DNA from: Siphonodentalium dalli
Lineage: Eukaryota > Mollusca > Scaphopoda > Gadilida > Siphonodentaliidae
Direction: 5' to 3'
NCBI GenBank assembly: GCA_032622095.1
Contig: CP136062.1
Location: 12,737,710-12,801,709 of the forward strand
DNA length: 64,000 bases
Shown in pieces: positions 21,601 through 59,875 of the stretch. The first letter of the stretch is position 1, and the number at the start of each line of letters is the position of its first letter. The position numbers were made by a program, and so were the translations under genes. The notes under the pieces are model-generated. The model saw nothing but the letters and a program-made list of their open reading frames with translations. It was not told the DNA's origin and made no database searches.

Positions 21601-24600
21601 TTGTTGACATCCAAGTTCTAATAATCATATATCTGAAAAAGACTGATTTTGGCCAAAAAAATTAAATTAAAAACTACTCTCCAACAGAATAAATTTCATT
21701 TAACAGCACACCATTTCAATTTATTTATTTAAAAATATGTCAATATTTCAACCTGACATTATGTCAGACAGTTTTAAAGCAGAGCCTGACAACCTATACA
21801 AATTTGAATTTGGTGTCTGACAAATGTCCGTGTCAGACCACTTATTTTAAGCCTTGTCTCTATCCATTGAAGTTTTGAAATGTCTCCTTCATTTAGCATC
21901 TGCTTGATGTTGGAAATGTCTATTCTTAGTCTCTTTTCAGATGCTAACTTGGTTGAATTTATATTCTCCACTAGAGAACGATTATCAGTGAACACATCAA
22001 TGTGCATTTTGTTTCTATCCACAGTGTTGAAAAGTAATTCACTCAATATGCAGCCCAAATAATATGCTGCATCCAGTCCGTCAACCATGGCTAGTGCCTC
22101 GGCAGCTAGTGTACTCTTCACAACTCTCCGAATTTTGTTAGACTTCCAGCAAATTGGACTACATTTTTCATTATTGTCAACCAAGAATATCATATAACCA
22201 CAAGAGCTAGAATATCCATCAGGAAGGTTTGCAAATGAGGCATCACAGTATAGTCTCAGTCGAAGATTGTTAACATCATTAAGTACCGGGAATTTTATTT
22301 CGAATGATTCCAATTTAAGCTGTTTTAGAATTTTGTTGCATTTAACTAAGTGTTCAACTTTGGGTTCTTTGATAGATGTGCTGATCTCCAAAGCATCATA
22401 TGCTGCATCAGGGCGTGTCTGATTAACTATCCAATTGATTTGTCCAGATGAGCTCCGCAATTGTGTTATTTCACTTTCAGTCAACGGTTCATGTTTCATA
22501 GATTTCCGTGCATTGTTTATCGGAATGAATTGTGTAGATTCTATGTATTGTTGTTGATTCATGAATATTCCTTCATCTGAATGTCTGATATCAAGTCCAA
22601 TGTATTTGAATTGAGAAGTTTGATGTCTTTCAATGTTGAAGGTTTCAGACAGAGGAATGATAACATTTTCTTTGAATTCCTTTGTACCTGCCCAGATAAA
22701 GTCATCAACATGAATTAAGAACATTCCAGAAAGTTCCTTATTGTCATATTTGTAGAATAAGCTTGGATCAGTTACTGATTTTCGGCACCCTAGTTGTTTC
22801 ATCACATCACAAACTTTGAAATACCAATTTCTCGAAGCATCATTCAGGCCATATACACATTTTTTGAGTTTCCATAACTTCCCTGATGACAGTGATATAT
22901 CCGGTTTGAGATATACTTCTCGTCCAATTTCCATTCCTTGCAGAAAAGCAGCCTTCACATCAATAAAACTGCATATCCACTCTAATGATGAAGCTAATGC
23001 TAATAAGATTTTTAGAGTTTCCTTCCCTGCAGTTGGCGAATCTGTCCTATGTTCATCTTTTTCCTCAAATCCTCTAGCAACAAGTCGAGCCTTTAACTGC
23101 CTTTCCCCATTCTTGAATTTTTCTGTAACGACCCACCTTGTTGATATATATGGCTGACCAACATCATCTACTTCTTCATACACCTTAAAGTTTTTCCAGT
23201 TGTCAAGTTCCTTCATTTTTGCAATCATAATATCTTCTTCTCGTCCATCTGTTATTACCACATTAACTTCATCAATGTTCTGATCATCACTACATATATG
23301 TTCATCTCTGCATGTGTCAAAAATCTTCCATTCCACACTCGGATTTTCAAAATCTACACCTGACACTTCTGAACTGTGCTGCAGATACCCCTCGTGTGAG
23401 TGGTTTAGCTTTGGTTCGTTAATTACGCTAGCGTACAATCATATTACTCGTAAACCATATCGGTAGAATGTCTGTCCCAAAATGGCCGCCAAATGGATAA
23501 AATCGATTGAAATTTACAATTTGTGGAAAATTGAGAGTTTTCCACTGAATGGCAACAAGCCATATTTCCAACTAAATCCTGAAAAATTACCTATAATTCT
23601 GCTGTGGTTAAGGAGTCGATTATTTAGGGCATTACTGTACATTCCTTAAGTGTGAAATAAAGATACCCCGCTGGACAAAACAAGTGTCCATTGGCACCGC
23701 AGTGTATTTGCCGTTCGGCCGCGGTGTCAGAGTTTGTAACTGCAGTTGAGCACCGCGGCCGGACGGCAAGTACACCGCGGCCGAACAGCAAGTACACTGC
23801 GACCGAAAGGCAACTACACCGCGGTCGAACTGCATGTACACCGTGGTTAGATTTCTGGTTTGTATCGTCTTTTTTCAGTTTAATGAACGTACACCGCGGC
23901 AACTACACCATGGCCGAATGGCAAGTACACCGCGGCCCAACTGTAGTTAGCCGGTGGAGCCCCGGTGTAGTTGCATTTCAGCCGCGGTGGCAACGCTAAC
24001 CCCACCGCGGTTAAGTGGACACTTGTTTTGTCCAGCAGGGTATGGATAATGAAAATTTTACATACCGGTAATATATATTTTTGTTATTTGTCCAGATCAG
24101 GGTTAGTATGTTGGATTTGAATGATTTGAGAGTGTGAACCCTGCATGATTATAAATTAAATCCACTTATCAATGCCACCCGTATGGTGCCCCTCCCAGAT
24201 ATGAGCAGACAATAATCAGGAATATATCCTTCTATATGTGTGAGGCTCACTACAGGGTCCATGAATGATATACTGTCTTTATCTGCATCTTTATAACTAA
24301 TAACTAACTAGTAACCACCTGCATGGTGCCCCTCACAGACAGGATCAGGCGATGCTCAGGAATATGTTCCTTGTATATGTGTGAGGCTCACTACAGGGTC
24401 CATGAATGATATACTGTCTTTATCTGCATCTTTATAACTAATAACTAACTAGTAACCACCTGCATGGTGCCCCTCGCAGACAGGATCAGGCGATGCTCAG
24501 GAATATATCCTTCTATACCTGTGAGGCTCACTACAGGGTCCATGAATGATATACATGTGCTGTCTTTATCTGCAGCTTTAAAAGTAATAACTAATTAGTA

Positions 24601-27600
24601 ACCTCACATACATGTAGGATTATTGAATGATATACTCTCTTTATCTGCAGCTTTACAGAATCAGTTGGTGAAAAAGCATTCCAGATTGAAATAACAGATC
24701 AAGATGGCCGACAATTTCGAGCTGGCCGCGGAGTATTGGACCGACATGATGGCTCATATATCGCCCGATATAAGCTATATACCAGTCCCGAAAGCTTCTA
24801 TCTCATTTTCAAACATAACAACATTCATGTTGCAAAGTCACCATATTTAGTCAAAGGTACTTTTTAGTTTGTTTTGATTGAATTGAAATTATCTTGATAT
24901 CAAGTCTGGAATTTTCCTAATGAGGTCCCCAGAGGGGGATTTTAGTGATTTTACCTTCTGGTGACCTCATTCTGATTAGCTGTCAACCGCTATGAGAGAC
25001 CTGATTGAAATTCCCAGCTGAAGTACAGTAATGCTCCAAATAATCGACTCTTTAACCACAGCAGAATTATGGGTACCTTTCAGGATTTAGTCGGAAATAT
25101 ATGGCTTGTTGCCATTCATCGGAAAATTCTCACTGAGAGCTTTCCGATGAATGGCAACAAGCCATATTTCCGACTGAATCTTGAAAAGTTACCCATAATT
25201 ACACTGTAGTTAAGGAGTCAAATATTTAGGGCATTACTGTAGCAACCGAACAGAAGGGTAAAGTAAATAAAAACATGTTAATTTAAGAGTAAATTGAGAC
25301 TATGGATACTTTTCGGAAGATGAGACATAAGCACTATGAGGTCCCCGCAGAGGGTGATTTTAGCAGGGTTCGCGATGCCGATCGCCAATTTATCAAATTG
25401 CTATTAAAAAAATGAAATGGCTCCAAAAAAATCCCGATTCTCTACAAAAATTGGCACCTAGCTTTTCGGCTTTTTGCAATTGTTACCCATCAGGCATATA
25501 ATAAAGCTTGCAGTCAACTGGTCGGAAACAAAACACACATTGATATCCGGTCGCGACATAGCGTATAATAGATTCGCGGCTTATGTCAGATCAACTTATT
25601 ATATCGCTGGGGTGAATGGTTTCGAATTTCTACTCTATTGTAACACTGAGTATGGCTATTGACTACAATTTGACAAACATTAGCGCAACAAAGGGCTTCC
25701 TGAAGTCTACATTGTAAAGGAAACTGTGTATTGGTAGCAGGTGTTATATAAACTATCATTAATATGTCCAAATACAGTGGTTGATTCAATATCGACGTGT
25801 GCTACACCATTTAAACCGAGCAACATACTAGTGCCGAGGATATCCGATTGTTTACACATCATTGATAAAATAAATATATACATACAATAGGTAATTTGCT
25901 TGTTCGTTTTTTTTTTTGGAAAACCAAATTCAAAAGTGGCACCAAAAAGTATTGGTCGGAAAAAAGTGGCAACAGAAAGTATAAAGTGGCTCTAAAAATA
26001 ATGCAATTGGCAAAAGTGTTGGCCCTGGGAATTTCGGGCCAGCGCGAACCTTGGATTTTAGTGATGTGGAATAGAGTCAACAAATTTATTCTTTGGTGAC
26101 CTCATTCTGCTTAGCCGTATAAGAAATAAGACACATTATTATTACAGATGAAAATGAGTTAATAGCCTATATAAACATAATGTAACACCTGGCTGTACAA
26201 CTGCATAGAACACAGCACACAGGAATTAATCTAATTTAAATTGAAATGAATGACACAAATAAACATTATCCAGCCGTTTCTGTTGTTTGTTCATCAAACA
26301 CTGTCCAATAAGATATGACCTCATTTTATACACAAGAGACATTGGAGAGAATGGCAGGCAGACAAGCTTTATTCAATTGGCAAGGGTTATAAGATGTCTG
26401 TTCATGATTTTTGTGGACCGATTTTAACTAAATTTGATGGGTTAAGTCGGTGTACCCTGGAGGATGTTTTTCAAAATTTAAATTTAAACTTTCTGTCTGT
26501 TACTGTTTATACAAAATCCTGCACAAGATATGAAAATCCATAAGACTTGTGTCAAAAATTAAAAAACATTAATTAAAAAAATAAAATGTCAAGCCTACCT
26601 ATCGACCCTATTTTTTTCTGACATGTAACTCAAACCAGATGTTTATTTTTCCCTATGATCAATGAGTATATAACACATGAACTGAATTTTTGTGATGGTA
26701 TCCCGCACAACGACTAGCATCACCAAATTCACCCTCTGTGGGGACCTCATTCTGCTTAGGTCTCATCTTCTGAGAAGTAACCATAGTCTCAATTTACTCT
26801 CAAATTAACATGTTTTTATTTACTTTTCCCTTCTGTTCGGTTGCCACAGTAATGCCCTGAATAATCAACTCCTTAGCGAGAGCTTTCAGATGAATGGCAG
26901 CAAGCCATATTTCCGACTAAATCCTGAAAAGTTACCCATAATTCTGCTGTGGTTAAGGAGTCGATTATTTAGGGCATTACTGTAACTGCATTTTTATGTT
27001 TACCCATACCATAGTATGGTAAACATAGAGTCGTTGTCTGGATTGACCACTCGTCATTCGTCCGTCTGTCTCTGTCTGTTTGTCCGTCTGTCTGTAGACA
27101 CTTTACGAATAATGCGATAACTCAAACATTTTCTATCCGATCAGAACCAAATTTTGTATATGGGTTTCTCAGCCCAAAATACAGATCGAGTTCAAATTTG
27201 GGTTTGATTTGAGTTTTTGTTACAGAGTTATGGCCCTTTTTCGACTTAGAATTCACGCATTTTTTATCTGATTGGAACCAAATTTGGTATGTGAATATAC
27301 AGATCGAGTTCGAATATGGGTTTGATCCGATTTATTTTAAAGGAGTTATGACCCTTTTTCGAGAAAAAAAATTTAAAAAAAAAAAAGAGGGTTTTGATTC
27401 TCGGGTATAGTCGCGTCTGGAAAAAAGGCCCGCGTTAAAGCATTTTATTACTATTTTCAAATTGACCGATGCTGTCAAATGATAACATGAAAATGGGAAA
27501 CTAGAAAAGAGAAATTAGTTATGTTTCAAACATCGAATATGATAGACATACAATGGTGTATGTGTTGGTATTCAACAACAGACACTAGGCAACGATAACT

Positions 27601-48600: not shown

Positions 48601-51600
48601 GGTTTGTAAATATGGCACAGAAGGAACACTGTAAATTTATGAAAAGGTGAGATGTGACTCGTGGTGATTCCACTGCACCAAGTGGCGAGGTGGTATGTAA
48701 TCTACAGTAACAGCTGCAAAGGGCCAAGTGGCGAGGTGGTATGTAATCTAAAGTAACAGCTGCAAAGGGCCAAGTGGCGAGGTGGTATGTAATCTAAAGT
48801 AACAGCTGCAAAGGGCCAAGTGGCGAGGTGGTATGTAATCTAAAGTAACAGCTGCAAAGGGCCAAGTGGCGAGGTGGTATGTAATCTAAAGTAACAGCTG
48901 CAAAGGGCCAAGTGGCGAGGTGGTATGTAATCTAAAGTAACAGCTGCAAAGGGCCAAGTGGCGAGGTGGTATGTAATCTAAAGTAACAGCTGCAAAGGGC
49001 CAAGTGGCGAGGTGGTATGTAATCTAAAGTAACAGCTGCAAAGGGCCAAGTGGCGAGGTGGTATGTAATCTAAAGTAACAGCTGCAAAGGGCCAAGTGGC
49101 GAGGTGGTATGTAATCTACAGTAACAGCTGCAAAGGGCCAAGTGGCGAGGTGGTATGTAATCTAAAGTAACAGCTGCAAAGGGCCAAGTGGCGAGGTGGT
49201 ATGTAATCTAAAGTAACAGCTGCAAAGGGCCAAGTGGCGAGGTGGTATGTAATCTAAAGTAACAGCTGCAAAGGGCCAAGTGGCGAGGTGGTATGTAATC
49301 TAAAGTAACAGCTGCAAAGGGCCAAGTGGCGAGGTGGTATGTAATCTAAAGTAACAGCTGCAAAGGGCCAAGTGGCGAGGTGGTATGTAATCTAAAGTAA
49401 CAGCTGCAAAGGGCCAAGTGGCGAGGTGGTATGTAATCTAAAGTAACAGCTGCAAAGGGCCAAGTGGCGAGGTGGTATGTAATCTAAAGTAACAGCTGCA
49501 AAGGGCCAAGTGGCGAGGTGGTATGTAATCTAAAGTAACAGCTGCAAAGGGCCAAGTGGCGAGGTGGTATGTAATCTACAGTAACAGCTGCAAAGGGCCA
49601 AGTGGCGAGGTGGTATGTAATCTACAGTAACAGCTGCAAAGGGCCAAGTGGCGAGGTGGTATGTAATCTAAAGTAACAGCTGCAAAGGGCCAAGTGGCGA
49701 GGTGGTATGTAATCTAAAGTAACAGCTGCAAAGGGCCAAGTGGCGAGGTGGTATGTAATCTAAAGTAACAGCTGCAAAGGGCCAAGTGGCGAGGTGGTAT
49801 GTAATCTAAAGTAACAGCTGCACAGGGCCAAGTGGCGAGGTGGTATGTAATCTAAAGTAACAGCTGCAAAGGGCCAAGTGGTGAGGTGGTATGTAATCTA
49901 AAGTAACAGCTGCAAAGGGCCAAGTGGCGAGGTGGTATGTAATCTAAAGTAACAGCTGCAAAGGGCCAAGTGGCAAGGTGGTATGTAATCTAAAGTAACA
50001 GCTGCAAAGGGCCAAGTGGTGAGGTGGTATGTAATCTAAAGTAACAGCTGCAAAGGGCCAAGTGGCGAGGTGGTATGTAATCTACAGTAACAGCTGCAAA
50101 GGGCCAAGTGGCGAGGTGGTATGTTATCTACAGTAACAGCTGCAAAGGGCCAAGTGGCGAGGTGGTATGTAATCTAAAGTAACAGCTGCAAAGGGCCAAG
50201 TGGCGAGGTGGTATGTAATCTAAAGTAACAGCTGCAAAGGGCCAAGTGGCGAGGTGGTATGTAATCTACAGTAACAGCTGCAAAGGGCCAAGTGGCGAGG
50301 TGGTATGTAATCTAAAGTAACAGCTGCAAAGGGCCAAGTGGCGAGGTGGTATGTAATCTAAAGTAACAGCTGCAAAGGGGCCAAGTGGCGAGGTGGTATG
50401 TAATCTACAGTAACAGCTGCAAAGGGCCAAGTGGCGAGGTGGTATGTAATCTAAAGTAACAGCTGCAAAGTGGCGAGGTGGTATGTTATCTACAGTAACA
50501 GCTGCAAAGGGCCAAGTGGCGAGGTGGTATGTAATCTAAAGTAACAGCTGCAAAGGGCCAAGTGGCGAGGTGGTATGTAATCTAAAGTAACAGCTGCAAA
50601 GGGCCAAGTGGCGAGGTGGTATGTAATCTACAGTAACAGCTGCAAAGGGCCAAGTGGCGAGGTGGTATGTAATCTAAAGTAACAGCTGCAAAGGGCCAAG
50701 TGGCGAGGTGGTATGTAATCTAAAGTAACAGCTGCAAAGGGCCAAGTGGCGAGGTGGTATGTAATCTAAAGTAACAGCTGCAAAGGGCCAAGTGGCGAGG
50801 TGGTATGTAATCTACAGTAACAGCTGCAAAGGGCCAAGTGGCGAGGTGGTATGTAATCTAAAGTAACAGCTGCAAAGGGCCAAGTGGCGAGGTGGTATGT
50901 AATCTAAAGTAACAGCTGCAAAGTGGCGAGGTGGTATGTAATCTAAAGTAACAGCTGCAAAGGGCCAAGTGTCGAGGTGGTATGTAATCTAAAGTAACAG
51001 CTGCAAAGGGCCAAGTGGCGAGGTGGTATGTAATCTAAAGTAACAGCTGCAAAGTGGCGAGGTGGTATGTAATCTAAAGTAACAGCTGCAAAGGGCCAAG
51101 TGGCGAGGTGGTATGTAATCTAAAGTAACAGCTGCAAAGGGCCAAGTGGCGAGGTGGTATGTAATCTACAGTAACAGCTGCAAAGGGCCAAGTGGCGAGG
51201 TGGTATGTAATCTAAAGTAACAGCTGCAAAGGGCCAAGTGGCGAGGTGGTATGTAATCTAAAGTAACAGCTGCAAAGGGCCAAGTGGCGAGGTGGTATGT
51301 AATCTAAAGTAACAGCTGCAAAGTGGCGAGGTGGTATGTAATCTAAAGTAACAGCTGCAAAGGGCCAAGTGTCGAGGTGGTATGTAATCTAAAGTAACAG
51401 CTGCAAAGGGCCAAGTGGCGAGGTGGTATGTAATCTAAAGTAACAGCTGCAAAGGGCCAAGTGGCGAGGTGGTATGTAATCTAAAGTAACAGCTGGAAAG
51501 GGCCAAGTGTCGAGGTGGTACATGATATAAATTTGAACGTCTTGTTTATATTCCTCAACAGGCTCAGCAGATAGTGAGGGCCAAGTGGCGAGGTGGTACA

Positions 51601-54600
51601 TGATTTAAATTTGAACCTCTTGTTTATATTCCTCAACAGGCTCAGCAGATAGTGAGGGCCAAGTGGCGAGGTGGTACATGATTTAAATTTGAACCTCTTG
51701 TTTATATTCCTCAACAGGCTCAGCAGATAGTGAGGGCCAAGTGGCGAGGTGGTACATGATTTAAATTTGAACGTCTTGTTTATATACCTCAACAGGCTCA
51801 GCAGATAGTGAGGGCCAAGTGGCGAGGTGGTACATGATTTAAATTTGAACGTCTTGTTTATATTCCTCAACAGGCTCAGCAGATAGTGAGGGCCAAGTGG
51901 CGAGGTGGTACATGATTTAAATTTGAACGTCTTGTTTATATTCCTCAACAGGCTCAGCAGATAGTGAGGGCCAAGTGGCGAGGTGGTACATGATTTAAAT
52001 TTGAACCTCTTGTTTATATTCCTCAACAGGCTCAGCAGATAGTGAGGGCCAAGTGGCGAGGTGGTACATGATTTAAATTTGAACGTCTTGTTTATATTCC
52101 TCAACAGGCTCAGCAAATAGCGAGGAATGCAAGAGATTTTGTCAGAGATAACCTGCTGCCAGTCGATATATTTTGCTACCATGTGAAAATGTTAGAGGTA
52201 AGGCTGCAAATAGAGGGTAAGGGTTAGGGTTAGGTGTTGATATATTTTGCTACCATGTGAAATTGTTAGAGGTAAGGCTGTAAATAGAGGTGCTACCATG
52301 TGAAATTGTTAGAGGTAAGGCTGTAAATAGAGGTGCTACCATGTGAAATTGTTAGAGGTTAGGCTGTAAATAGAGGAAATCTAGTGTTTTTGATCGGATA
52401 CCGAAAATTTGGCCAGAGTGAGCGAGACCATCGTTTTATTTTCGTGAGCGACTTGACGCAAGCGCCAAATAAACATTTGTCTCCTTTGCGAATGACATAA
52501 TTTGCAGTATCCAATAAAAAACACTAGCTATTCTTTTTATTTTAAACAATTTCAAGAAATTCTCCATTTACAACGACATGTTCTCATAGTGGAGCTTTCC
52601 TCAGAGACCACGCCCACAGCGGTAGTACCGCCCACTGGTAATAAGACTTAACCCATATAAATATTGTCTGTTTCGCGAGATTGACTTCCGAAGTGAACAC
52701 ATCAGCAGTGGCACTAAATTAAATGTGAAAATATGACAAGTGTCATATAACGTTGTTATAATCACAGATAAATTTATAATATCATGGCCCGAATATAAAT
52801 CTCAGTATATTATGATTTGACAACAAAAAAGTTGTTTGAATATAACTAATTTAACACTGAATGTATGCATGGATATCAAAATTAGGGTGCAGAAAGATGG
52901 CAGCAGAATTTTCAATGCAGCCTTTGGCTGGCTCAGTTGCTGATTGGTCGAAAATATCCGCTAATAAATATTTGATTGACAGCTGTGGAAAGGTCCATTT
53001 CCTTCAATCGATGTGTCAAAGCCAACAGCTGGTCGCTGCCTGTTCACTTAACCAGCCACAGAGATTTATAGTTTCCGTGTTCTTCCCCCATAATTATGTC
53101 AAATTTCAACATAGAATAGATTTTTCTTTTAACCCTTTCAGTGCCAAGTCCGATTTTTGTATCAACCCATATTTCCTTGATCATTTTTCAAATTTATTGA
53201 TTATAATAATGTGACACATTGATGGAAAGAGCTCTAAGAGCTCTTTCCATCAATGTATCACATTATTATAATCAATAATTTTGAAAAATGATCAAGGAAA
53301 TATGGGTTGATACAAAAATCGGACTTGGCACTGAAAGAACTATAATATTAAGAGTAAAGGATAACTAGTGACTCGTGGTATCTTGAAATATTTGGTACGC
53401 GAAAGTCAATCAGTTGCACATGCGATCTAGTTGGAACACTCTACCAAATGAAATGTGACAATCCTGTTTGCTTACAGGTAATGGGTCGAAACATTATGTG
53501 ACATGCGCTTAGCATGGCATATAGTCAGCAATCTGTAACGAGTCGAAACGTTATGTGACATGCGCTTAGCATGGCATATATTCAGCAATCTGTAACGAGT
53601 CGAAACGTTATGTGAAATGCGCTTAGCATGGCATATAGTCAGCAATCTGTAACGATTCGAAACGTTATGTGACATGAGCTTAGCATGGCATATAGTCAGC
53701 AATCTGTAATGAGTCGAAACGTTATGTGAAATGCGCTTAGCATGGCATATAGTCAGCAATCTGTAACGAGTCGAAACGTTATGTGACATGAGCTTAGCAT
53801 GGCATATAGTCAGCAATCTGCAACTGATGATGATCTTATCAAAACATTTTAGCATCTTTTTAACTCATTGAGAGAATTTTCCAAAACGTTTAAATTCTAC
53901 TTTTATAGTCTTATAGACCTCCAGGGTTTCCAAATTTTAACTATAACAACAAATGTACCCCAATTCCCCATTATGTCAACGTTTTTGTCTGACACTCGAT
54001 AATCAATTGTTCCGTATTAAATGATTTATTAACAGAACATTAACAGAGCTATTTTCATCAGAAGAAACATGATTTTACACATGGACAAAATATGTCAAAT
54101 GACATTTGGTATTAAACGATAGAGTTATCTCCCTTGGAACAATGTATACTATGGGAAACAATGTAATTTTTGTTAACAATTCTTGTTGGCTGCAGCTGAT
54201 GGTTGAGGGATAATTAATGTTTGTCTTATTATATAAATATTATGTATATTAACCCTTTACCCAACAGAAACGGCCCTGTGCATAAAATTGTCACAGAATG
54301 TAGAAAAATATTATAAAAATTGTTAAAATCTGTGTTAAATATTTTTTTAGGCCAATGCATTCTCTTATATATGCGAGGCGACCTATGGTCGACTCGCATA
54401 TATAAGAGAATGCATTGGCACAGGGCATAACTATAACCATCACAATGTGGTCAATGAACCGGCTCCAATGATATCCATATTTGTATGGTGTTATTGAGAC
54501 AGACCGAAGATATTTTAGGCTGTTGAAGCTTTATTTGGGCGTTTTTGGCCGATTTGATGGGTAAAGGGTTAATTAAGAGATTTATCCCACAGGGAGCCTT

Positions 54601-56257
54601 ACACAGATGGAAGCATGCACTGCAGAGTGTCGTCTGCTCCAGTCTATGTGGGGCTCTCCATGGGTTTTGGTGGGTAAAGGGTTAAATGCATTTCTGACAG
54701 CTATTTTATTGAATAAATTTTGATTATAGGCATATGAGACCCGCCATATCAAATCCAGTCGTAAGTCGGGATTTTTTTTACCCTGTGCCAATGCATTCTC
54801 TTATATATGCGAGTCGACCATAGGTCGCCTCGCATATATAACAGAATGCATTGGCCTAACAATTTTTTACAATTTTAATAATTTTTTTATTGTATTCTTT
54901 AACAATTTTATAATTTCACCCACACAGAGCCCCAGACAAACATGAGCAGACGACACTCTTCTGTATGCTTCTATATATGTGTGGGGCTCCCTGCAGGGTA
55001 ATGGATGTTTTTTATTTTATGTCCTAAAAATTGTAAGAAACATTTATTTAAAAAAAATGATAAAAAATTGTTAGGCCAATGCATTCTCTTATATATGCGA
55101 GGTGACCTATGGTCGACTCGCATATATAAGAGAATGCATTGGCACAGGGTAAAAAAATCCCGACTTACAACTGGATTTGATATGGCGGGTCACATATGTG
55201 CAGTGAGTATATTTAAAATGTGGGTTGCCAGTCCTAGCGAGAAAATAGTTTTATTCTTGAACATTACTCCATTTTAGTTGATATAATACGAAATTAAATT
55301 AAATTAACACTAATTAATTTATATAAAGCTCTTTATAGACTAGTCCAAGTCTGCTCGTACTAAAACCAGCTATTAGATATTACGATAGCAAGATGCTGGT
55401 GTTAGTACGAGAATGTTCCATTACCATTAATATGACATGGTTACGAGTCACATAAAACCACAATTAAATGTAATCAAATTGCGACAATAAACAGGTTTAT
55501 TCCATAGAAGACATGATATTTGTTCTGAAAACCACATCAGTTGTCAATTGAAAGTTGTAATTTAATTTGAAAAGAGACATTTACTGCAGTGTTGACATAT
55601 TTTTTAAAGAATGCAAACTCAATTGACCTCACAAAGTGACAGCGGCATATTACGGCGAATATATTCTAGTAATCGTAAGATAAACATAAACAAAACCACG
55701 TGGTCGTAAATTGAACTAATTTTATCACATATACCCTGAATTACCTGGAAATTTGTAAATTTAAAATTCCATATTTATCACGAGACGTTCCATGTAAGAA
55801 ATGTTTAACTAATAAGTAATGTAGGACCACTTACAATAAAAATAAAGACATAATGTTTGAATAAGGGTGCATTTGATTGTTATGCGCATATTCGATTGAC
55901 GCCTAATCATCAGAATGTTTTTAGCTCAACTTTACCTTGTAAAGTTTGAACTATTGCCATGGCTTGGTATCAGTGTTCGCGCTGGACCGAAAAAAACTTT
56001 AGCCAAAAGTTTAGCCAAATGAAAATTATATTAGCCAAATGAAAAAAACTTTAGCCAAATGTTTTTTGGTCAAATTAAAAAAAACTATGGCCAAAATAAA
56101 TCATCGTTTTCTTGTCGGTTTACAATTAATGACTAAAACGTCAAATCTAACAGACACAGGTAACATACACAATAATTTAACTGATTTTGAATTAAAAATA
56201 TTTATATATATATCATTTATTAAACATTTATTAATCTTTATGTGAAAGAACGATTTG

Positions 56258-56288
<31 letters not shown>

Positions 56289-59200: not shown

Positions 59201-59875
59201 TCAGCAGAATGAGGTTCCCAGAGGGTGAATTTGGTTATGCTAGTCCGTTATGCGGGGTAGCATCACTAAATTCACCCTCTGGGAACCTCATTCTGCAAAT
59301 GACAGACACACTATTTCAAGGCTTTGGTTCATGTGAATATTCGTCCAAGGATAAAATGGCAATCAGAAATTGACAAAATCTGTTTATTTTCCAGGCGTAT
59401 TCTAAACTTCTGAAAGAAAAACCTGAGTTTGATGACACCTTTGAGCTTGTTGAACAACCAGATGACCATACAACGAAATGTAACTGCCAAATGTCAAAGG
59501 TAATTACAGTTATTACCCAAATGTAACTGCCAAATGTTGAAGGTGAATACAGTTGTAACCTAAATTTAACTGCCAAATATCAAAGGTAAGTACAGTTGTA
59601 ACCTAAATTTAACTGCCAAATATCACAGGTAAATACAGTTATAACCTAAATTTAACTGCCAAATGTTTAAGGTGAATACAGTTATAACCTGAATCTTTGA
59701 TTTTACCTGATATATATCTCTTTGTGTTGATAATCTAGTATTACTTAGACATGTCAACTTTCCGCATTCCTAATCCCTCAATTGATTGTAACACATGAAA
59801 TTATTCCCTTTCCAAGTTGAACTACAGTGTCATTGACACTTTCATTTGTTCTTTTTGTAGAAAGACGAACTGTGA
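12450..59875 (+). CDS. POGLUT2: Protein O-glucosyltransferase 2/3 (KDELC family), complete ten-exon gene
   Basis: The ten exons listed separately join in phase into 511 codons plus TGA, against about 500 residues in the animal family. Residues 1-31 look like a signal peptide, with a basic start and a hydrophobic core near 14-31. Residues about 40-137 form a filamin-type Ig domain, and about 145-500 a CAP10/KDELC glucosyltransferase domain. Landmarks include VNLGDWP at 245-251, FSWCGS, WRGRDSR at 318-324 and [10 protein letters not shown] from 380. The protein ends in KDEL. Family members are soluble ER-lumen enzymes that add O-glucose to EGF repeats of Notch-type receptors. D249 in VNLGDWP is where I would place the catalytic aspartate, by analogy with POGLUT1. 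All nine introns are GT-AG. I cannot choose between the POGLUT2 and POGLUT3 names, since an invertebrate probably has one co-orthologue. Confidence 0.93.
12676..12810. mobile_element. Hairpin MITE just after the exon 1 donor
   Basis: CACAGGCTTTGGTAGTTTTA and its inverse TAAAACTACCAAAGCCTGTG form arms of about 63 bp around AATAATATCTTTATT. It starts about 20 bases into intron 1. No clear target duplication. Confidence 0.85.
12820..13235 (-). repeat. Dispersed repeat shared with 42920-43400 and 63870-64000
   Basis: GGGCAATTTTATACTATAGT, GGTTAGCATTATTCTTGGGC, AATTAATCGATT and GGGGACCATCAAATCGGATTG are found inverted at 42925-43065 and 63870-64000. The part around GACCCACCCATCAAAGCTCA/GAGTCTCAGACC matches 43150-43320. 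Intron 1. Confidence 0.75.
13252..15082. mobile_element. Long inverted-arm element in intron 1
   Basis: Two arms of about 330-440 bp, 13252-13590 and 14620-15082, are inverted versions of each other. They share GTTGGGCCAACGTTG-like repeats, and the inner ends match as ATGTCACTATCTGAGG...AGTTTGTGAGAAACT against its inverse at 14625-14665. The ends are approximately CAGATAGCATGACATG and the inverse of ATTTATGCTGTCTG. I did not find a convincing target duplication, so the family (Mutator or hAT-like) is open. The roughly 1 kb centre shows no gene. Confidence 0.6.
15366..15580 (+). repeat. 35-bp minisatellite, six copies
   Basis: AAAGGTCAAG(T/C)(G/T)GGGTACTC followed by AAACGACCTGTTCAT, repeated at 15366, 15401, 15436, 15471, 15506 and 15541. 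It lies in intron 1 just upstream of a dispersed repeat. Confidence 0.92.
16488..18080 (-). mobile_element. Inner hAT element with decayed transposase
   Basis: Ends CAGGCTTGGGGCAATTAC and, inverted, CAGGGATGGGGTAATTG, flanked by the perfect 8-bp duplication GATGCGAC at 16480-16487 and 18081-18088. Both subterminal regions are dense in AATTACAATTAC repeats, a likely transposase-binding landscape. On the minus strand 17352-17621 encodes a BED zinc-finger-like stretch (IWQHFNLQ... CKLYP... [10 protein letters not shown]). The second cysteine is lost and a gtaagt donor follows. The frame at 16809-17015 ends in [10 protein letters not shown], matching the TRW region of hAT transposases. The catalytic core between them is mostly missing. 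Confidence 0.9.
16501..16640. repeat. AATTACAATTAC-rich subterminal array of the inner hAT
   Basis: About twelve GTAATT/AATTAC hexamers in 140 bases, mirrored at 17935-18072 near the other end. This is the density expected of transposase subterminal binding sites. Confidence 0.7.
18640..19555 (+). repeat. Tandem family with about 190-bp units
   Basis: About five units contain CATAACTTGAACAGTAGTGC, TCTCAATGAAATTTGGTATG, GGGTTCCATCGTTTTGTTCG and GAGTTATTCATCTTTGTTTA. They begin after a GTCCGTCCGTCCG simple repeat. Inverted units of the same family lie at 1-250. It is non-coding although open for about 100 codons. Confidence 0.8.
20658..20805. mobile_element. pogo-like MITE, left part
   Basis: Begins CAGTAATGCCCTAAACAATC after TA and runs through the arm junction, then stops. 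A right part of the same family lies at 23531-23637 on the far side of the copia fragment. The two overlap by about 38 bp, so they may be one split copy or two truncated copies. Confidence 0.75.
20958..21104 (-). repeat. Probable 3' LTR of the copia element
   Basis: Read on the minus strand, this 147-bp segment begins TGTTACGATG and ends AAACAACA, giving TGTT...AACA ends. It is preceded by a long purine-rich tract (plus-strand pyrimidines at 21107-21160), the expected polypurine tract after the pol stop at 21202. No matching 5' LTR is present in the window, consistent with 5' truncation, so the boundaries rest on the terminal motif only. Confidence 0.6.
21202..23438 (-). pseudogene. Ty1/copia-type retrotransposon pol fragment (RT and RNase H), interrupted by a MITE
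   Basis: From 23438 to about 21866 the minus strand encodes the integrase-RT linker, then the RVT_2 reverse transcriptase and RNase H. Landmarks are [56 protein letters not shown], the catalytic [42 protein letters not shown] and FTDNRS. The palm and RNase H acidic residues are present. The frame is broken at 21858 by a 561-bp MITE. The family's terminal segment ([12 protein letters not shown]) resumes in the same frame at 21202-21288. Gag, protease and integrase are absent upstream, so the copy is 5'-truncated. The pol type and short LTR recall the GalEa lineage, a tentative assignment. Confidence 0.9.
21297..21857 (-). mobile_element. hAT-like MITE inserted in the copia pol frame
   Basis: The ends are AAGCCTTAAAATAA and its inverted counterpart TTATTTTAAGCCTTGT. 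An 8-bp direct repeat CTCTATCC flanks it at 21289-21296 and 21858-21865. The copia reading frame is continuous across the site when one target copy and the insert are discounted, which shows the insertion cleanly. It contains repeated TGACATTNTGTCAG and GTCTGAC motifs and no coding sequence. Confidence 0.85.
23531..23637. mobile_element. pogo-like MITE, right part
   Basis: Starts within the arm junction (GAGAGTTTTCC) and ends TTAGGGCATTACTG followed by TA. Confidence 0.75.
23666..24040. mobile_element. GC-rich TA-flanked MITE with internal CACCGCGG repeats
   Basis: The ends are CCCCGCTGGACAAAACAAGT and its inverse ACTTGTTTTGTCCAGCAGGG, flanked by TA (23664-23665, 24041-24042). This fits a Tc1/mariner-type MITE. 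The interior consists of roughly 15-25-bp repeats of CACCGCGGCCGAACGGCAAG on both strands. It is a sharp CpG- and GC-rich island inside AT-rich intron 1. The open frames in it are by-products of the repeats. Confidence 0.82.
24180..24650 (+). repeat. Tandem duplication of the exon 2 acceptor region (about 141 bp x 3, plus real copy)
   Basis: The sequence from ATGAATGATATAC to the acceptor recurs at 24261, 24402 and 24542, and again before exon 2 at 24622. Spacing is 141, 140 and about 81 bp. Each full unit also includes a diverged copy of the roughly 85-bp AACCCACAGG palindrome family. The third unit keeps a usable ttatctgcag acceptor at 24575. Behind it the frame runs into a stop within a few codons, so it is a decoy rather than an alternative exon. 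Confidence 0.85.
24651..24856 (+). CDS. POGLUT2: POGLUT2/3 exon 2: filamin-type Ig domain
   Basis: Encodes [11 protein letters not shown] through KSPYLVK, residues 70-137, including the family motif [11 protein letters not shown] and the strand ending [11 protein letters not shown]. The acceptor is ttatctgcag at 24641-24650. The alternative AG at 24657-24658 would lose the frame with exon 1. The donor is gtactt at 24857, leaving one base that completes Gly138. The 3' end of the upstream intron is a three-copy tandem repeat of about 141 bp that carries copies of this acceptor (see separate entry). Confidence 0.92.
24905..25000. mobile_element. Foldback MITE fragments around the hAT insertion
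   Basis: GAGGTCCCCAGAGGGGGATT and GGTGACCTCATTCTG at 24918-24975 belong to the GAATGAGGTCC family. Related pieces lie at 25310-25363 and 26054-26115, on both sides of the 25364-26053 hAT, and at 26705-26785. Confidence 0.7.
25026..25239. mobile_element. pogo/Tc1-mariner-like MITE, complete copy
   Basis: TA target duplication (25024-25025, 25240-25241) with ends CAGTAATGCTCCAAATAATC and ATTTAGGGCATTACTG. The arms are nearly perfect inverted repeats meeting at TCTCACTGAGAGCTTTCC. Intron 2. Confidence 0.88.
25364..26053. mobile_element. hAT-like MITE, 690 bp, nested in a foldback MITE
   Basis: Ends CAGGGTTCGCG and CGCGAACCTTG, with the perfect 8-bp duplication GATTTTAG at 25356-25363 and 26054-26061. 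It interrupts the AGGGTGATTTTAGTGATG sequence of the GAATGAGGTCC foldback family. No transposase is present. Confidence 0.88.
26116..26700. other. Intron 2 sequence, nothing recognised
   Basis: AT-rich, no splice-flanked open frame with protein similarity. Confidence 0.5.
26848..26984. mobile_element. pogo-like MITE, internally deleted copy
   Basis: CAGTAATGCCCTGAATAATC, then most of the left arm is missing before GCGAGAGCTTTC; the right arm is complete to GGCATTACTG. Intron 2. Confidence 0.75.
27000..27415 (+). repeat. Dispersed repeat with GTCCGTCTGTCTG start
   Basis: ACCATAGTATGGTAAACATAG, a GTCTGTC simple repeat, then two units containing GGAACCAAATTTGGTATGTG, ATACAGATCGAGTTCGAATA and GAGTTATGACCC. 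Related pieces lie at 6200-6400 and 29090-29530. No gene. Confidence 0.72.
27416..29089. other. Intron 2 sequence, nothing recognised
   Basis: Largest stretch in the window with no repeat I can match. AT-rich, with A runs and a TATATATA stretch at about 28525. The open frame 28209-28400 (minus) has no motif. Confidence 0.5.
29818..30165 (+). repeat. Tandem duplication of about 169 bp, two copies
   Basis: The segment from CATTTGGTTTATTTGCTTAA to ATAAAAATAGCTAA is present twice in a row with only a few substitutions. It lies in intron 2, upstream of exon 3. Confidence 0.85.
30250..31424 (+). repeat. Dispersed TAGCTCAA repeat, 5'-incomplete, interrupted by piggyBac-like MITE
   Basis: Same units and same 3' end (GTTGAGCTACAGTGTCACTG) as 15705-20578. 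Its 3' end is 50 bases before exon 3. Confidence 0.78.
30806..31233 (+). mobile_element. piggyBac-like MITE, copy 1
   Basis: Flanked by TTAA (30802-30805, 31234-31237), with ends CCCTTTAACCAACAG and GTTGGGTAAAGGG. Inside are two inverted copies of a strong palindrome (CCAATGCATTCTC...GAGAATGCATTGG) separated by AT-rich sequence. It lies in intron 2 inside a dispersed repeat. Confidence 0.88.
31475..31689 (+). CDS. POGLUT2: POGLUT2/3 exon 3: linker and start of CAP10 domain
   Basis: Encodes residues 138-209. The cysteine-rich HHETCNCP at the start corresponds to the conserved segment after the filamin domain. WLNNMKCP, then [15 protein letters not shown] and NNK, match the N-terminal part of the KDELC catalytic region. 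The acceptor is ttattatccag at 31474 and the donor gttagt at 31690. The exon lies between two piggyBac-like MITEs (30806-31233 and 31824-32272). A dispersed repeat ends about 50 bp before its acceptor. Confidence 0.92.
31824..32272 (+). mobile_element. piggyBac-like MITE, copy 2
   Basis: TTAA at 31820-31823 and 32273-32276; ends CCCTTTACCCAACAG and TTGGGTAAAGGG. Same structure as copy 1, 590 bp away on the other side of exon 3, so exon 3 is bracketed by two near-identical elements. Confidence 0.9.
32325..33110 (+). repeat. Segmental tandem duplication containing a pogo-like MITE end
   Basis: The right end of the CAGTAATGCCC MITE plus about 110 bases after it (ATCTACCCCCTTAACGAGG ... GACCACGGTATTAAAACTGC) occurs at 32330-32525 and again, 350 bp later, at 32680-32875. 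Part of the following sequence (TTGTAAGGTGGTTG) recurs again at 33080. It lies in intron 3. Confidence 0.8.
33138..33285 (+). repeat. 32-bp minisatellite upstream of exon 4
   Basis: About 4.5 copies of a unit containing AAAATGTACAAAAAGTCAC and GGATCTCAC. It ends about 65 bases before the exon 4 acceptor. It happens to be open in one frame, but the resulting peptide is purely repetitive and resembles no protein. Confidence 0.85.
33350..33427 (+). CDS. POGLUT2: POGLUT2/3 exon 4: short catalytic-domain exon
   Basis: This 78-nt phase 0-0 exon encodes 26 residues, 210-235: [15 protein letters not shown] followed by [11 protein letters not shown]. This is the segment expected between HYKIINNK and the [15 protein letters not shown] block. 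The acceptor is tatttatag at 33349 and the donor gtatga at 33428. The last 18 bases and the donor are repeated twice more downstream (33410-33508). Its upstream flank is a 32-bp minisatellite. Skipping this exon would keep the reading frame. Confidence 0.92.
33410..33508 (+). repeat. Tandem duplication of the exon 4 donor (about 32 bp x 3)
   Basis: The end of exon 4 plus donor (TTTCACTCACACGAAAGgtatga) is followed by two diverged copies ending AAAAGgtaggt and GAAAGgtatgc, each with a T-rich tail. Three consecutive donor-like sites therefore lie within 66 bp. Using the second or third would insert 32 or 33 or so extra bases. Which of these keep frame depends on the exact site. Confidence 0.85.
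33770..34050 (+). repeat. 57-bp minisatellite, locus 1 (about 5 copies)
   Basis: The unit contains GTCAGCAATCTGTAACGAGT, CGAAACGTTATGTGACATGC and GCTTAGCATGGCATATA. Because 57 is divisible by three, a repetitive frame stays open on the minus strand. It shares both flanks with locus 2 at 53480-53825, so both loci are copies of one mobile unit. Confidence 0.9.
34080..34736. other. Intron 4 sequence, nothing recognised
   Basis: Unique apart from a short foldback-MITE scrap (TTCACCCTCTGGGGACCTCATTC region) at 34698-34725. Confidence 0.5.
34885..36071 (+). mobile_element. Second piggyBac-like family, 1187 bp, nested in a palindromic MITE
   Basis: TTAA at 34881-34884 and 36072-36075; ends CTCTTTCGTTGCCGAG and GGCAATCAAAGAG. 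The right end carries a GGCCGATATTATCGGCC palindrome twice. It inserted at a TTAA in the TTTTTAATGTGTTAAGCC part of the CCAATGCATTCTC MITE, whose pieces flank it at 34737-34880 and 36076-36114. No transposase is visible. Confidence 0.85.
36125..36297 (+). CDS. POGLUT2: POGLUT2/3 exon 5: glucosyltransferase core
   Basis: Encodes residues 236-292 plus two bases of Arg293: [32 protein letters not shown], then [17 protein letters not shown]. These are the most recognisable CAP10/KDELC blocks. The acceptor is a short T tract and cag ending at 36124; donor gtaaac at 36298. The only intron sequence between a truncated palindromic MITE and the exon is about ten bases of T tract and cag, so the MITE remnant supplies or crowds the branch-point region. 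Confidence 0.92.
36330..36772. mobile_element. Foldback MITE (GAATGAGGTCC family), long form
   Basis: Long form of about 440 bp: two palindromic ends (36350-36460, 36650-36745) enclose a spacer containing TGCATTTTATCTTCTGCAAA and ACTTCCCAGAAGATGAGG. It starts 33 bases after exon 5. Confidence 0.8.
36821..37060. mobile_element. Two tandem copies of the 80-bp AACCCACAGG hairpin MITE
   Basis: AACCCACAGGGAGCCTCACA through the inverse TGTGGGGCTCTCTATGGGTT at 36821-36898 and 36977-37058. The flanking GTCAGTAATGTTAGACATCC is duplicated with it, so the pair arose by a 156-bp tandem duplication. Intron 5. Confidence 0.82.
37095..37670 (+). repeat. Dispersed TAGCTCAA repeat, 5'-incomplete
   Basis: Units with CATGGCCGTCAGTAGCCATC, CTCTTTGCATGACTAAATCC and GACCTCTAGATGGGAGC, ending AGTTGAGCTACAGTGTCATT at about 37660. 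Intron 5. Confidence 0.78.
37838..38297 (+). repeat. 41-bp minisatellite upstream of exon 6
   Basis: About 11 copies of a unit containing CATAGCAACCACCAAGGGTG and CTTATACCAGGTGAATGACGT. Units vary by loss of GTCAT or gain of CTAAGG. It lies in intron 5 and ends about 125 bases before exon 6. Confidence 0.9.
38424..38661 (+). CDS. POGLUT2: POGLUT2/3 exon 6: WRGRDSR block
   Basis: Encodes residues 293-372, including [21 protein letters not shown] and [12 protein letters not shown], then [15 protein letters not shown] is the family signature close to the nucleotide-sugar site. The acceptor is atatttcag at 38423; one base (G) completes Arg293. The donor gtaagt at 38662 is the strongest in the gene. 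A 41-bp minisatellite of about 11 copies (37838-38297) ends about 125 bp upstream. Confidence 0.93.
38745..39157. mobile_element. Foldback MITE (GAATGAGGTCC family), long form
   Basis: Same structure as 36330-36772. It starts about 85 bases after exon 6. Confidence 0.8.
39275..40680 (+). mobile_element. hAT-like element, intact copy of 1406 bp
   Basis: Ends CAGGGTTTCCGCCAGGC and TTGGCGGAAACCCTG, flanked by the 7-bp direct repeat TCTATAG (39268-39274 and 40681-40687). The element is the inverted counterpart of 2850-3215 plus 7070-8118. It contains an internal inverted pair around ATCCCGTGCTATCGTACG and no transposase. Confidence 0.85.
40985..41570 (+). repeat. Dispersed repeat with GTCCGTCC start, about 180-bp units
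   Basis: A GTCCGTCCGTCCG run is followed by two units with CCATGGGAACCTGTGCACC, TGCGATTATGACGTCTGTCC and CGGTCAATG. The open frames on either strand are repeat-derived. Intron 6. Confidence 0.72.
41961..42906 (+). repeat. 37-bp minisatellite, 25 copies, intron 6
   Basis: The unit is GCGCTAACCTATAAGATAAC plus TGTCTGTGCCTTTCCGT. Three variants occur: ATAAGATA (A), ATGAGATA (G) and ATAAGGTA (K). Copies 11-17 and 18-24 both read G-A-G-A-G-G-K, so a 259-bp higher-order unit is present. The first monomer lies in a 38-bp segment that is repeated inverted at 44190-44228. Confidence 0.93.
42920..43400 (+). repeat. Dispersed repeat, same family as 12820-13235
   Basis: Opposite orientation to the intron 1 copy; runs from GGTACTCAATCCGATTCGATG to ATGACGGGAGCTTCCTG. 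It directly follows the 37-bp minisatellite. Confidence 0.75.
43412..43482. mobile_element. Free-standing CCAATGCATTCTC palindrome
   Basis: CCTGTGCTAATGCATTCTC and ATATATGCGAGTCGACC, then the inverse ending GAATGCATTGGCC. Same palindrome as inside the piggyBac-like MITEs but without their TTAA ends, so it moves or is copied on its own. A decayed relative is at 58832-58900. Confidence 0.75.
43783..44172 (+). mobile_element. piggyBac-like MITE, copy 3
   Basis: TTAA at 43779-43782 and 44173-44176; ends CCCTTTACCCAACAG and TTGGGTAAAGGG. The first palindrome is shortened (CGACCATAGGACCATAGAG). Intron 6. Confidence 0.9.
44806..44925 (+). repeat. Older, diverged copy of the exon 7 acceptor segment
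   Basis: TTGACACTTTCATTACAG at 44820-44837 is followed by a diverged version of exon 7 (TATAAATACCAATG... GATGGCACTGTTGCACCATACCG... CTGCTTGGTGGTGATGGG). It is about 80% identical by eye, with frame-breaking changes. A dispersed-repeat end precedes it, exactly as at the recent array 2.3 kb downstream. It therefore looks like an earlier duplicate of the same junction. Confidence 0.75.
45155..45999. mobile_element. hAT-like MITE, 845 bp
   Basis: Ends CAGGGTTGGTCGATTTAAAT and ATCACCAACCCTG, with the perfect 8-bp duplication ATCTCTAG at 45147-45154 and 46000-46007. Both termini carry repeated GATTTAAATCA palindromes. It sits inside a dispersed repeat (CTCTAGATGGGAGC) in intron 6. No coding sequence. 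Confidence 0.92.
47070..47479 (+). repeat. Tandem duplication of exon 7 acceptor and 5' exon part (100 bp, four decoy copies)
   Basis: Units begin at acceptors ending at about 47079, 47179, 47279 and 47379, with the real one at 47479. Each contains tttcattacag followed by about 70 bases of near-identical exon 7 sequence ([20 protein letters not shown]), then drops back into the intron end through GTGATGCCTACAATGTCATTG. A unit of 100 bp is not a multiple of three. The copies differ from one another by only one to four bases, so expansion is recent or homogenised. Confidence 0.93.
47480..47689 (+). CDS. POGLUT2: POGLUT2/3 exon 7: [10 protein letters not shown] block
   Basis: Encodes residues 373-442: [50 protein letters not shown] and WAKDNDEK, all expected KDELC segments. 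The acceptor is tttcattacag at 47479 and the donor gtgaga at 47690, both phase 0. The first 70 or so bases and the acceptor exist in four further tandem copies immediately upstream. The fifth, most downstream copy is chosen because only it continues into [13 protein letters not shown]. Confidence 0.94.
47965..48335. mobile_element. Foldback MITE (GAATGAGGTCC family), long form with a deleted left palindrome
   Basis: Same family; the left palindrome is cut after CTAGCATCACCAAATC and the right one is complete. Intron 7. Confidence 0.78.
48363..48585. mobile_element. pogo/Tc1-mariner-like MITE, complete copy
   Basis: TA at 48361-48362 and 48586-48587; ends CAGTAATGCCCTAAATAATC and TTTCGAGCATTACTG. 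A small duplication (TTTAGTCTGATTTAGTCGG) is present in the left arm. Intron 7. Confidence 0.88.
48676..51500 (+). repeat. 46-bp minisatellite, about 61 copies, intron 7
   Basis: The unit is built around GGGCCAAGTGGCGAGGTGGT, then ATGTAATCTAAAGTAACAG and CTGCAAA. Copies are nearly identical; the main variants are CTAAAG/CTACAG and short units that have lost GGGCCAA. Each unit contains GGTATGTAA, a fair match to a 5' splice site, and aacag before CTGCAAA, a weak 3' site. It starts about 1 kb after exon 7 and runs to within 0.6 kb of exon 8. Confidence 0.95.
51500..52107 (+). repeat. 78-bp array carrying copies of the exon 8 acceptor (seven copies)
   Basis: GGCTCAGCAGATAGTGAGG recurs every 78 bp at 51561, 51639, 51717, 51795, 51873, 51951 and 52029, and in the real exon at 52107. 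Each is preceded by tatattcctcaacag, a strong acceptor identical to the functional one. After about 18 exon-like bases the unit switches to GGGCCAAGTGGCGAGGTGGT from the neighbouring 46-bp array. The units are therefore chimeras of exon start and minisatellite. 78 is divisible by three, which explains a long repetitive open frame on the minus strand. Confidence 0.93.
52108..52197 (+). CDS. POGLUT2: POGLUT2/3 exon 8: C-terminal part of catalytic domain
   Basis: This 90-nt phase 0-0 exon encodes 30 residues, 443-472: [18 protein letters not shown], then [12 protein letters not shown]. It matches the family segment that ends DIFCYYFKL. The acceptor is tcctcaacag at 52107 and the donor gtaagg at 52198. 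Both ends are duplicated: seven 78-bp units with the acceptor lie upstream, and three 43-bp units with the donor lie downstream. Only this copy has a full-length open exon between the two sites. Confidence 0.92.
52175..52376 (+). repeat. Tandem duplication of the exon 8 donor (43 bp, three extra copies)
   Basis: TGCTACCATGTGAAAATG TTAGAGgtaagg of the real exon is repeated from about 52241, 52291 and 52334, the last with the donor mutated to gttagg. Between the real donor and the first copy is a short TAAGGGTTAGGGTTAGG stretch. Three usable-looking donors lie within 160 bp. Confidence 0.88.
53129..53331. mobile_element. Near-perfect hairpin MITE related to the TTTCAGTGCC family
   Basis: Arms of about 95 bp begin CCCTTTCAGTGCCAAGTCCG and end with the inverse CGGACTTGGCACTGAAAG. 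They meet at AGAGCTCTAAGAGCTCTTTC in the centre. The arms are almost identical, so a long RNA hairpin would form if transcribed. It lies in intron 8. Confidence 0.88.
53480..53825 (+). repeat. 57-bp minisatellite, locus 2 (about 6 copies)
   Basis: Same monomer as at 33770-34050, followed by the same roughly 85-bp flank beginning CAACTGATGATGATCTTATC. The upstream flank also matches in part: TATGATTTGACAACAAAAA at about 52809 and 33556. Unit number and variants differ between loci, so arrays changed after dispersal. Confidence 0.9.
54253..54568 (+). mobile_element. piggyBac-like MITE, copy 4
   Basis: TTAA at 54249-54252 and 54569-54572; ends CCCTTTACCCAACAG and GATGGGTAAAGGG. The first palindrome is deleted and the second kept. 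Intron 8. Confidence 0.88.
54731..55198. mobile_element. Foldback element with CATATGTGACCCGCC ends around a palindromic MITE
   Basis: Inverted ends of about 48 bp (CATATGAGACCCGCCATATC, then AAATCCAGTCGTAAGTCGGG) enclose a CCCTGTGCCAATG...CATTGGCACAGGG foldback. A diverged copy of the AACCCACAGG hairpin family sits at about 54917-55000. Three families are thus stacked in 470 bp. Confidence 0.78.
55919..57792 (+). repeat. Dispersed TAGCTCAA repeat with hAT insertion
   Basis: Starts TTTTTAGCTCAACTTTACC at 55919, is interrupted by 55971-56897, continues with four CATGGCCGCCAGCAGCCATC-type units, and ends GTTGAGCTACAGTGTCATTG at about 57790. A 27-G run follows at 57819-57845. Intron 8. Confidence 0.82.
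55971..56897. mobile_element. hAT-like MITE, 927 bp, with repeated AGCCAAA motifs and a 28-G run
   Basis: Perfect 14-bp terminal inverted repeats CAGTGTTCGCGCTG / CAGCGCGAACACTG and an 8-bp duplication CTTGGTAT at 55963-55970 and 56898-56905. Both ends contain clusters of TTAGCCAAAT. A run of 28 G lies at 56261-56288. It is inserted in the 5' part of a dispersed TAGCTCAA repeat in intron 8. Confidence 0.93.
57846..58615. other. Intron 8 sequence; small GAAGTCGG repeats
   Basis: Mostly unrecognised. At 58288-58362 GAGAAGTCGGCCCG, AAGTCGGACC, GAGAAGTCGGGCCCC and GAAGTCGGCCC recur, perhaps a small element. No gene. Confidence 0.45.
58616..58718. mobile_element. pogo-like MITE, left arm only
   Basis: CAGTAATGCCCTAAGTAATC through CATTCATCGGAAAGCTT, then unrelated DNA. 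Intron 8. Confidence 0.75.
59072..59327. mobile_element. Foldback MITE (GAATGAGGTCC family), 256 bp with 10-bp target duplication
   Basis: Ends CAAGCCTTGAAATAGTG and CACTATTTCAAGGCTTTGG, flanked by TTCATGTGAA at 59062-59071 and 59328-59337. Arms are over 120 bp. It lies 67 bases upstream of exon 9. Confidence 0.82.
59395..59499 (+). CDS. POGLUT2: POGLUT2/3 exon 9: C-terminal tail
   Basis: This 105-nt phase 0-0 exon encodes 35 residues, 473-507: [20 protein letters not shown], then [15 protein letters not shown]. It corresponds to the divergent tail that carries a C-x-C pair before the ER-retention signal. The acceptor is tttattttccag at 59394 and the donor gtaatt at 59500. If the following intron were retained, translation would add eight residues and stop without KDEL. 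The exon end and donor are repeated about four more times downstream. Confidence 0.88.
59476..59697 (+). repeat. Tandem duplication of the exon 9 donor (43 bp, about five units)
   Basis: The exon 9 end AACTGCCAAATGTCAAAGgtaatt recurs with variants AAGgtgaat, AAGgtaagt, CAGgtaaat and AAGgtgaat. The second copy (gtaagt) is a closer match to the donor consensus than the real site. Each copy is in the intron, behind in-frame stops. Confidence 0.88.
59698..59848 (+). repeat. 3' end of a TAGCTCAA repeat next to exon 10
   Basis: ATATATCTCTTTGTGTTGAT through CCAAGTTGAACTACAGTGTC and ATTGACACTTTCAT, the same last 150 bases as at 57660-57790. The exon 10 acceptor follows at once. Confidence 0.8.
59861..59875 (+). 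CDS. POGLUT2: POGLUT2/3 exon 10: KDEL and stop
   Basis: After acceptor ctttttgtag at 59860 the frame reads AAA GAC GAA CTG TGA, that is Lys-Asp-Glu-Leu-stop in phase 0 with exon 9. KDEL is the ER-retrieval signal that gives the KDELC proteins their name. The whole coding content of the last exon is therefore the retention signal. The 3' end of a dispersed repeat (ending ...GACACTTTCAT, 59845) lies 15 bases before the exon. No AATAAA or ATTAAA is visible in the next 400 bases, so the transcript end is unknown. Confidence 0.9.
   Translation, partial: KDEL

Follow-up and report, generated by a model that had tools for sequence, protein, structure and literature searches.

Tandem repeats whose units span an exon-intron junction are a genuine feature of many genes, genome-wide, in the scaphopod Siphonodentalium dalli, and the copying of exon ends into the adjacent intron is far above chance. 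We consider it probable that these arrays are mirage-like minisatellites, formed as repeats ordinarily are and tolerated where they cross exon-intron borders.

The window, by which we mean the whole 64,000-nucleotide stretch of DNA that was analysed, lies at C2:12.74-12.80 Mb in a genome of 2.23 Gb and nine large contigs. It contains, on the plus strand, a ten-exon gene of the POGLUT2/3 type (KDELC, GT90) at positions 12450-59875, located by tblastn with the human KDELC1/POGLUT2 protein as query, followed by inspection of splice sites. Exon 1 (12450-12655) extends from the start codon to the donor GTTAGT and is followed by exon 2 (24651-24856), exon 3 (31475-31689), exon 4 (33350-33427), exon 5 (36125-36297), exon 6 (38424-38661), exon 7 (47480-47689), exon 8 (52108-52197), exon 9 (59395-59499) and exon 10 (59861-59875), which encodes the KDEL and the stop. 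When joined, these exons gave an uninterrupted frame with the GT90 motif and a C-terminus ending in KKDEL, and the model built from exon-adjacent sites was collinear with the human homologue, with no extra segments at the junctions that carry arrays. The distance from the gene to the end of C2 is 12-13 Mb. On C1 there is a more distant paralogue, of the POGLUT1 type, in which the exon matches found overlap no TRF array, and paralogy was thus rejected as the driver of array formation. Intron 1 of the window gene also holds a Ty1/copia-type reverse transcriptase open reading frame of 554 codons on the minus strand (21774-23438).

Arrays were called by TRF and the 18 junctions of the window gene were checked with a 30-mer test, the two being concordant on acceptor 7, acceptor 8 and donor 9. 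While the earlier note had placed six of the 18 junctions inside tandem arrays, this was firm at acceptors 7 and 8 and donors 8 and 9, whereas the array at donor 4 was degenerate and that at acceptor 2 partial. Each of the firm units holds the junction together with 20-71 nt of exon, unit periods in the gene range from 33 to 141 bp, and the authentic copy is the exon-adjacent one, which is the last at acceptors and the first at donors. All arrays are given here in plus-strand coordinates. At acceptor 7 (47051-47551) a 100-bp unit, comprising 29 nt of intron and 71 nt of exon, is present five times; a degenerate copy of this unit (86%) was also observed at 44810-44907, 2.2 kb upstream of the array, in both copies of the locus described below. 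At acceptor 8 (51499-52125) a 78-bp unit with approximately 20 nt of exon is present eight times, the last copy being authentic, and CAACAG is intact in 8/8 copies. It is preceded by an intronic 46-bp array of 62 copies (48678-51520), which has approximately 22 bp in common with the 78-bp unit and seems to have seeded the acceptor-8 array. The array at donor 8 (52174-52376) consists of the authentic first copy, an interrupting segment and then three copies of a 43-bp unit, and because the insert separates the first copy from the remainder, the TRF call begins past the authentic copy. This interrupting segment has the telomere-like GGGTTAGGGTTAGG, with the telomere-like GGGTAAGGGTTAGGGTTAGG at 52213-52232. 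At donor 9 (59476-59694) a 43-bp unit of 24 nt of exon and 19 nt of intron is repeated 5.1 times, with GT retained in 5/5 copies.

The array at donor 4 (33407-33509), with a period of 33 and 3.2 copies, was negative in the 30-mer test. That at acceptor 2 (24175-24657) was called by TRF as three copies of a 141-bp unit (24175-24603), followed by a partial one that runs to the acceptor; the unit has an acceptor-like segment with an exon part of only about 8 nt, and its last copy is incomplete. A seventh junction, donor 3, is latent in the window, where positions 31636-31711 hold one 59-bp unit and a 17-bp partial repeat (TTTAATAGgAGATCCAT/TTTAATAGcAGATCCAT), that is 1.3 copies, against 4.3 copies in the second copy of the locus. 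Exons 5 and 6 are without junction arrays, and a 41-bp intronic array stops approximately 130 bp upstream of the latter.

The second copy of the locus is inverted and lies about 430 kb away, at C2:12294001-12347000 (C2:12.29-12.35 Mb; L017-L022). It is approximately 97-98% identical to the window over most aligned stretches, with insertions and deletions, and the coding exons of the two copies show six base differences. Between the two, be they alleles or a segmental duplication, the copy numbers of the arrays change by whole units. At donor 3, the second copy carries four 59-bp units and the same partial repeat against one unit in the window, a difference of exactly three units, while acceptor 7 has five units in the window against four in the second copy and acceptor 8 eight against seven. 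Intronic arrays differ too, among them a 37-bp array with 25 copies against 1 and the 46-bp array with 62 copies in the window against 56, and of two arrays confined to one locus copy, one is purely intronic. As CCT and cullin genes are likewise present in two closely spaced copies, the assembly may have kept the other haplotype here, as the second copy of the locus; alternatively, that copy may be a recent and real segmental duplication. The arrays themselves are very improbable indeed as artefacts of assembly, in the form of collapsed or expanded repeats. That CCT and cullin genes have two copies, tens to hundreds of kb apart, does make haplotypic false duplication likely and copy numbers possibly inexact, but the copies within arrays are mutually diverged, nearly the same arrays are present in the separately assembled inverted copy with differences of whole units, and many of the cases sampled in other genes, presented below, are simple two-copy duplications.

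The origin of the units was then considered, as the earlier note had held that they are unrelated in sequence and that no single mobile repeat had struck several sites. This stood for the exon-8 and exon-9 units, which matched only the window locus and its second copy, but not fully for those of exons 2 and 7. The exon-2 unit is chimeric, its first half being a dispersed repeat and its second half, including the acceptor, local; among the matches listed, the dispersed half was found at 37 other loci, of which 34 lie less than 30 Mb from a chromosome end (P=4e-18). The first part of the exon-7 unit is the end of an element; the 23-bp core of this element, ACARTGTCATTGACACTTTCATT, occurs approximately 20,000 times genome-wide (up to one mismatch), while the reversed control gave 0 occurrences. 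We regard it as highly unlikely that a mobile element carrying splice sites, akin to an introner, creates the arrays. The dispersed half of the exon-2 unit and the element end in the exon-7 unit, which also adjoins acceptors 3 and 10, would be in keeping with such an origin, yet the units at exons 8 and 9 are not found beyond the two copies of the locus, and the units sampled in other genes consist of the exon and intron of that very gene. One dispersed sequence at many junctions, as expected of introners or splice-site-carrying transposons, was not what we found, dispersed sequence making up no more than part of the units at exons 2 and 7.

The element ending in ACARTGTCATTGACACTTTCATT has as its body a 164-bp tandem unit, which recurs in the window. 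Its 23-bp end lies at window positions 20558, 31397, 37652, 44812, 47053, 57770 and 59824, in all cases in the sense (plus) strand of the gene, and in a hand count over the fetched genes it was in the sense strand in 16/17 independent cases. The element has a palindrome close to its end and tandem repeats in its centre, which is suggestive of a non-autonomous Helitron or Helentron, of which ACARTGTCATTGACACTTTCATT is probably the 3' end. If the element inserts into the T-rich tract that precedes acceptors, this would account for both the sense bias and the adjacency to acceptors 3, 7 and 10.

A comparison with other genes, which the earlier note had proposed, revealed junction-spanning duplications in exons of CCT, cullin, myosin and kinesin genes as well. 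The first sample comprised 95 exons (190 edges) of CCT, cullin and myosin genes taken from best profile matches, and a follow-up sample added 33 kinesin exons (66 edges), giving 128 exons in total. The sequence of each exon end was compared with the adjacent intron, a score of at least 20 counting as a match, and the opposite intron served as control. In the 95 exons, 13/190 edges (approximately 7%) matched the adjacent intron against 0/190 for the opposite intron; the same control gave 1/66 edges in the kinesins. By inspection, a junction-spanning duplication was present in 11/95 of the CCT, cullin and myosin exons, and the hand-checked cases were L032, L046, L047, L050, L058, L061 and L063 in CCT genes, L076, L085 and L100 in cullin genes and L110 in a myosin gene. 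Excluded from these 11 were L117, a 20-bp array near a myosin exon with an intronic unit, and L053 and L086, which were too diverged. Together with 8 kinesin exons over threshold, exon-end sequence was copied into the adjacent intron in 19/128 exons, a proportion drawn from small samples and from exons that, within a gene, are not independent of each other; kinesins L137, in which the exon copy is old and degenerate, and L148, in which the start of the exon is uncertain, were retained in it, as the threshold had been declared beforehand.

Both boundary types are affected in these unrelated genes, with acceptors represented by exons 7 and 8 of the window gene, L032 and L076, and donors by exons 8 and 9 of the window gene, L046, L050, L058, L085, L100, L110 and L168, the last of these being, with L140, a further example of like structure. 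One CCT donor, in which GCATTCCGTAAAGCAACTCATATG is followed by GTAAGC, is present eleven times with decay, and a myosin donor, in which GACCTCATTGAAAAG is followed by GTAGGT, is present twice with approximately 58 nt of exon. With three affected exons in each of two CCT genes, the window gene is not an extreme. Some observations on the gene families themselves were made along with these comparisons. Approximately ten near-identical copies of muscle myosin heavy chain are clustered at C4:274.2-275.5 Mb, and in most of them the matched part of one exon contains an in-frame TAG. The muscle myosin exons, short and conserved as they are, best matched entries that we take to be from scallop (278 bits) and squid (275 bits), with 257 bits for 3jbh, presumably from tarantula, and 254 bits for human MYH7. 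The phosphagen kinase exon set that was compared was of the arginine/taurocyamine-kinase type, not creatine kinase, and no match was found to molluscan haemocyanin, which is uninformative about its absence. The myosin and phosphagen kinase exons indicate a host that is most probably a lophotrochozoan and not a lancelet.

The earlier note had further suggested that junctions may be hot spots for tandem duplication and had proposed permuting the repeats against them. TRF arrays cover 22% of the introns of the window gene, so that 3.9/18 junctions would be expected to be covered, and 4 were strictly covered; circular shifts within the gene gave P=0.55 and thus no excess at junctions. When junctions and introns of the 95 sampled exons were compared in a like-for-like duplication test, local duplicates were found at 17-20% of intron-interior positions against 7-8% of junctions, introns being the more repeated of the two. 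We therefore did not retain the suggestion, and it is quite unlikely that splice junctions are mutational hot spots, for example by virtue of R-loops, polymerase pausing at splice sites or the common motifs CAG/G and GTAAG. Short, non-dispersed arrays were slightly denser at junctions, with a coverage of 3.7-4.2% against approximately 2-2.5% far into introns in a distance profile of small numbers, and as the intron background contains dispersed satellites, without which junction coverage is slightly higher, a mild preference for junctions is conceivable. The donor-3 array also differs between locus copies that are otherwise 97-98% identical. Against these points stand both comparisons with introns given above and the purely intronic position of one of the two arrays found in a single locus copy.

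Chromosome position predicted junction arrays better. In the first sample, 8/26 exons lying no more than 30 Mb from a contig end were affected against 3/69 elsewhere (Fisher P=0.001, with the cut-off chosen post hoc), and at the level of genes the figures were 4/7 distal against 3/23 others (P=0.03). As the 30 Mb cut-off had been picked after inspection of the data, the prediction was written down and then tested on the kinesins, where 6/13 distal exons and 2/20 proximal ones were affected (one-sided P=0.026). As few genes contributed distal kinesin exons (four positions, including a set of near-identical copies on C7), the follow-up supports, without proving, a concentration less than 30 Mb from chromosome ends. 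Distal concentration and unit-wise instability of length are also features of subtelomeric minisatellites in other genomes; these differ from the units described here, which contain exon ends and splice sites.

We propose that stretches of approximately 30-150 bp would often be tandemly duplicated in this genome, with slippage or unequal exchange as the likely mutational step, and that the resulting arrays would then gain or lose whole units. Such duplication would act alike on intron and exon-edge DNA and most strongly in the outer parts of chromosomes. Where it crosses a border, the extra copies, each with a piece of exon and a splice site, would land on the intron side and leave one complete exon with its splice site. 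With the extra copies in the intron and the exon whole, the change would be largely harmless and close to neutral, provided that splicing takes place exclusively at the exon-adjacent copy. Duplications wholly within exons would alter the protein and would be removed by selection; no array wholly inside an exon was seen in the sampled exons. The exon-adjacent copy was always intact and arrays had grown only on the intron side, and together with the lack of arrays within sampled exons, this makes the suggestion of the earlier note, that duplications are tolerated as one good site remains, consistent with all of the DNA evidence. Junctions would then resemble seeds of repeats for no other reason than that a genome rich in repeats tolerates them at these edges. 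Tolerance may be incomplete, as junctions are less covered than introns.

Outside L050, GT or AG is intact in almost every copy of the decoy sites, and decoys could thus be used. That the duplicated splice sites are functional and under selection, whether in alternative splicing or as a step in the gain of introns or exons, is nevertheless very doubtful. This conservation of sites outside one CCT array would agree with a function, as would the intron gain from mirages proposed for lancelet globins (PMC3087553), but several L050 decoys are without GT, and the period was a multiple of three in 8/17 arrays (P=0.30), the lack of a significant bias giving no sign of in-frame reading of decoy copies.

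While the earlier note knew of no named system of this kind, such arrays have been described as "mirages" in lancelet genes for Adh3 and globin (PMC3087553) and for troponin C and PGBD5 (PMC3902484). In the Adh3 and globin genes, mirages have boundary-spanning units, differ in copy number between haplotypes and are compatible with normal transcripts, the exon-adjacent site being used in splicing (PMC3087553). Somatic instability has been reported for the Adh3 mirage of lancelets. The arrays described here are alike in that the unit spans the exon-intron boundary at both 5' and 3' boundaries, that its length varies by gene (10-160 bp in lancelet, 33-141 bp here) in several genes of one genome, that there is one authentic, exon-adjacent copy with decoys that keep GT/AG, and that copy number varies, between haplotypes in lancelet and here between two locus copies that may be alleles or a segmental duplication. 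In contrast to the lancelet cases, the host is a lophotrochozoan, the arrays come from a systematic sample (approximately 7% of exon edges), and they are concentrated in distal chromosome regions, which we have not seen reported for lancelet mirages. In the part of the literature that was searched, we found nothing relevant on junction repeats in molluscs and no report of junction-spanning arrays outside lancelets. Intron gain through tandem genomic duplication of AGGT-containing exon sequence, as in the Rogers model and the potato RdRp case (PMC4974935), shares with our arrays a local tandem duplication that includes splice signals. It differs in that duplication here begins at an existing junction and the copies enlarge an intron, and no new AGGT-bounded intron in formerly continuous coding sequence was found.

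Mirages have so far been known from a handful of lancelet genes, and their presence at approximately 7% of sampled exon edges in conserved housekeeping genes of a very different animal would make them general to repeat-rich genomes. Gene predictors and short-read assemblies are, in practical terms, prone to mishandle exons with such arrays. Each array also confronts the spliceosome with 2-11 splice sites that are almost identical, a natural experiment from which the rules of site choice, be it exon definition, proximity or order, could be read in RNA, and a single genome would suffice to test the proposed path by which boundary duplication leads to intron gain. It is conceivable, although unlikely, that these boundary-spanning minisatellites amount to an ongoing, genome-wide and distally concentrated variation in splice-site copy number in a protostome, in which some of the sites would be used and would feed alternative splicing and the birth of exons and introns.
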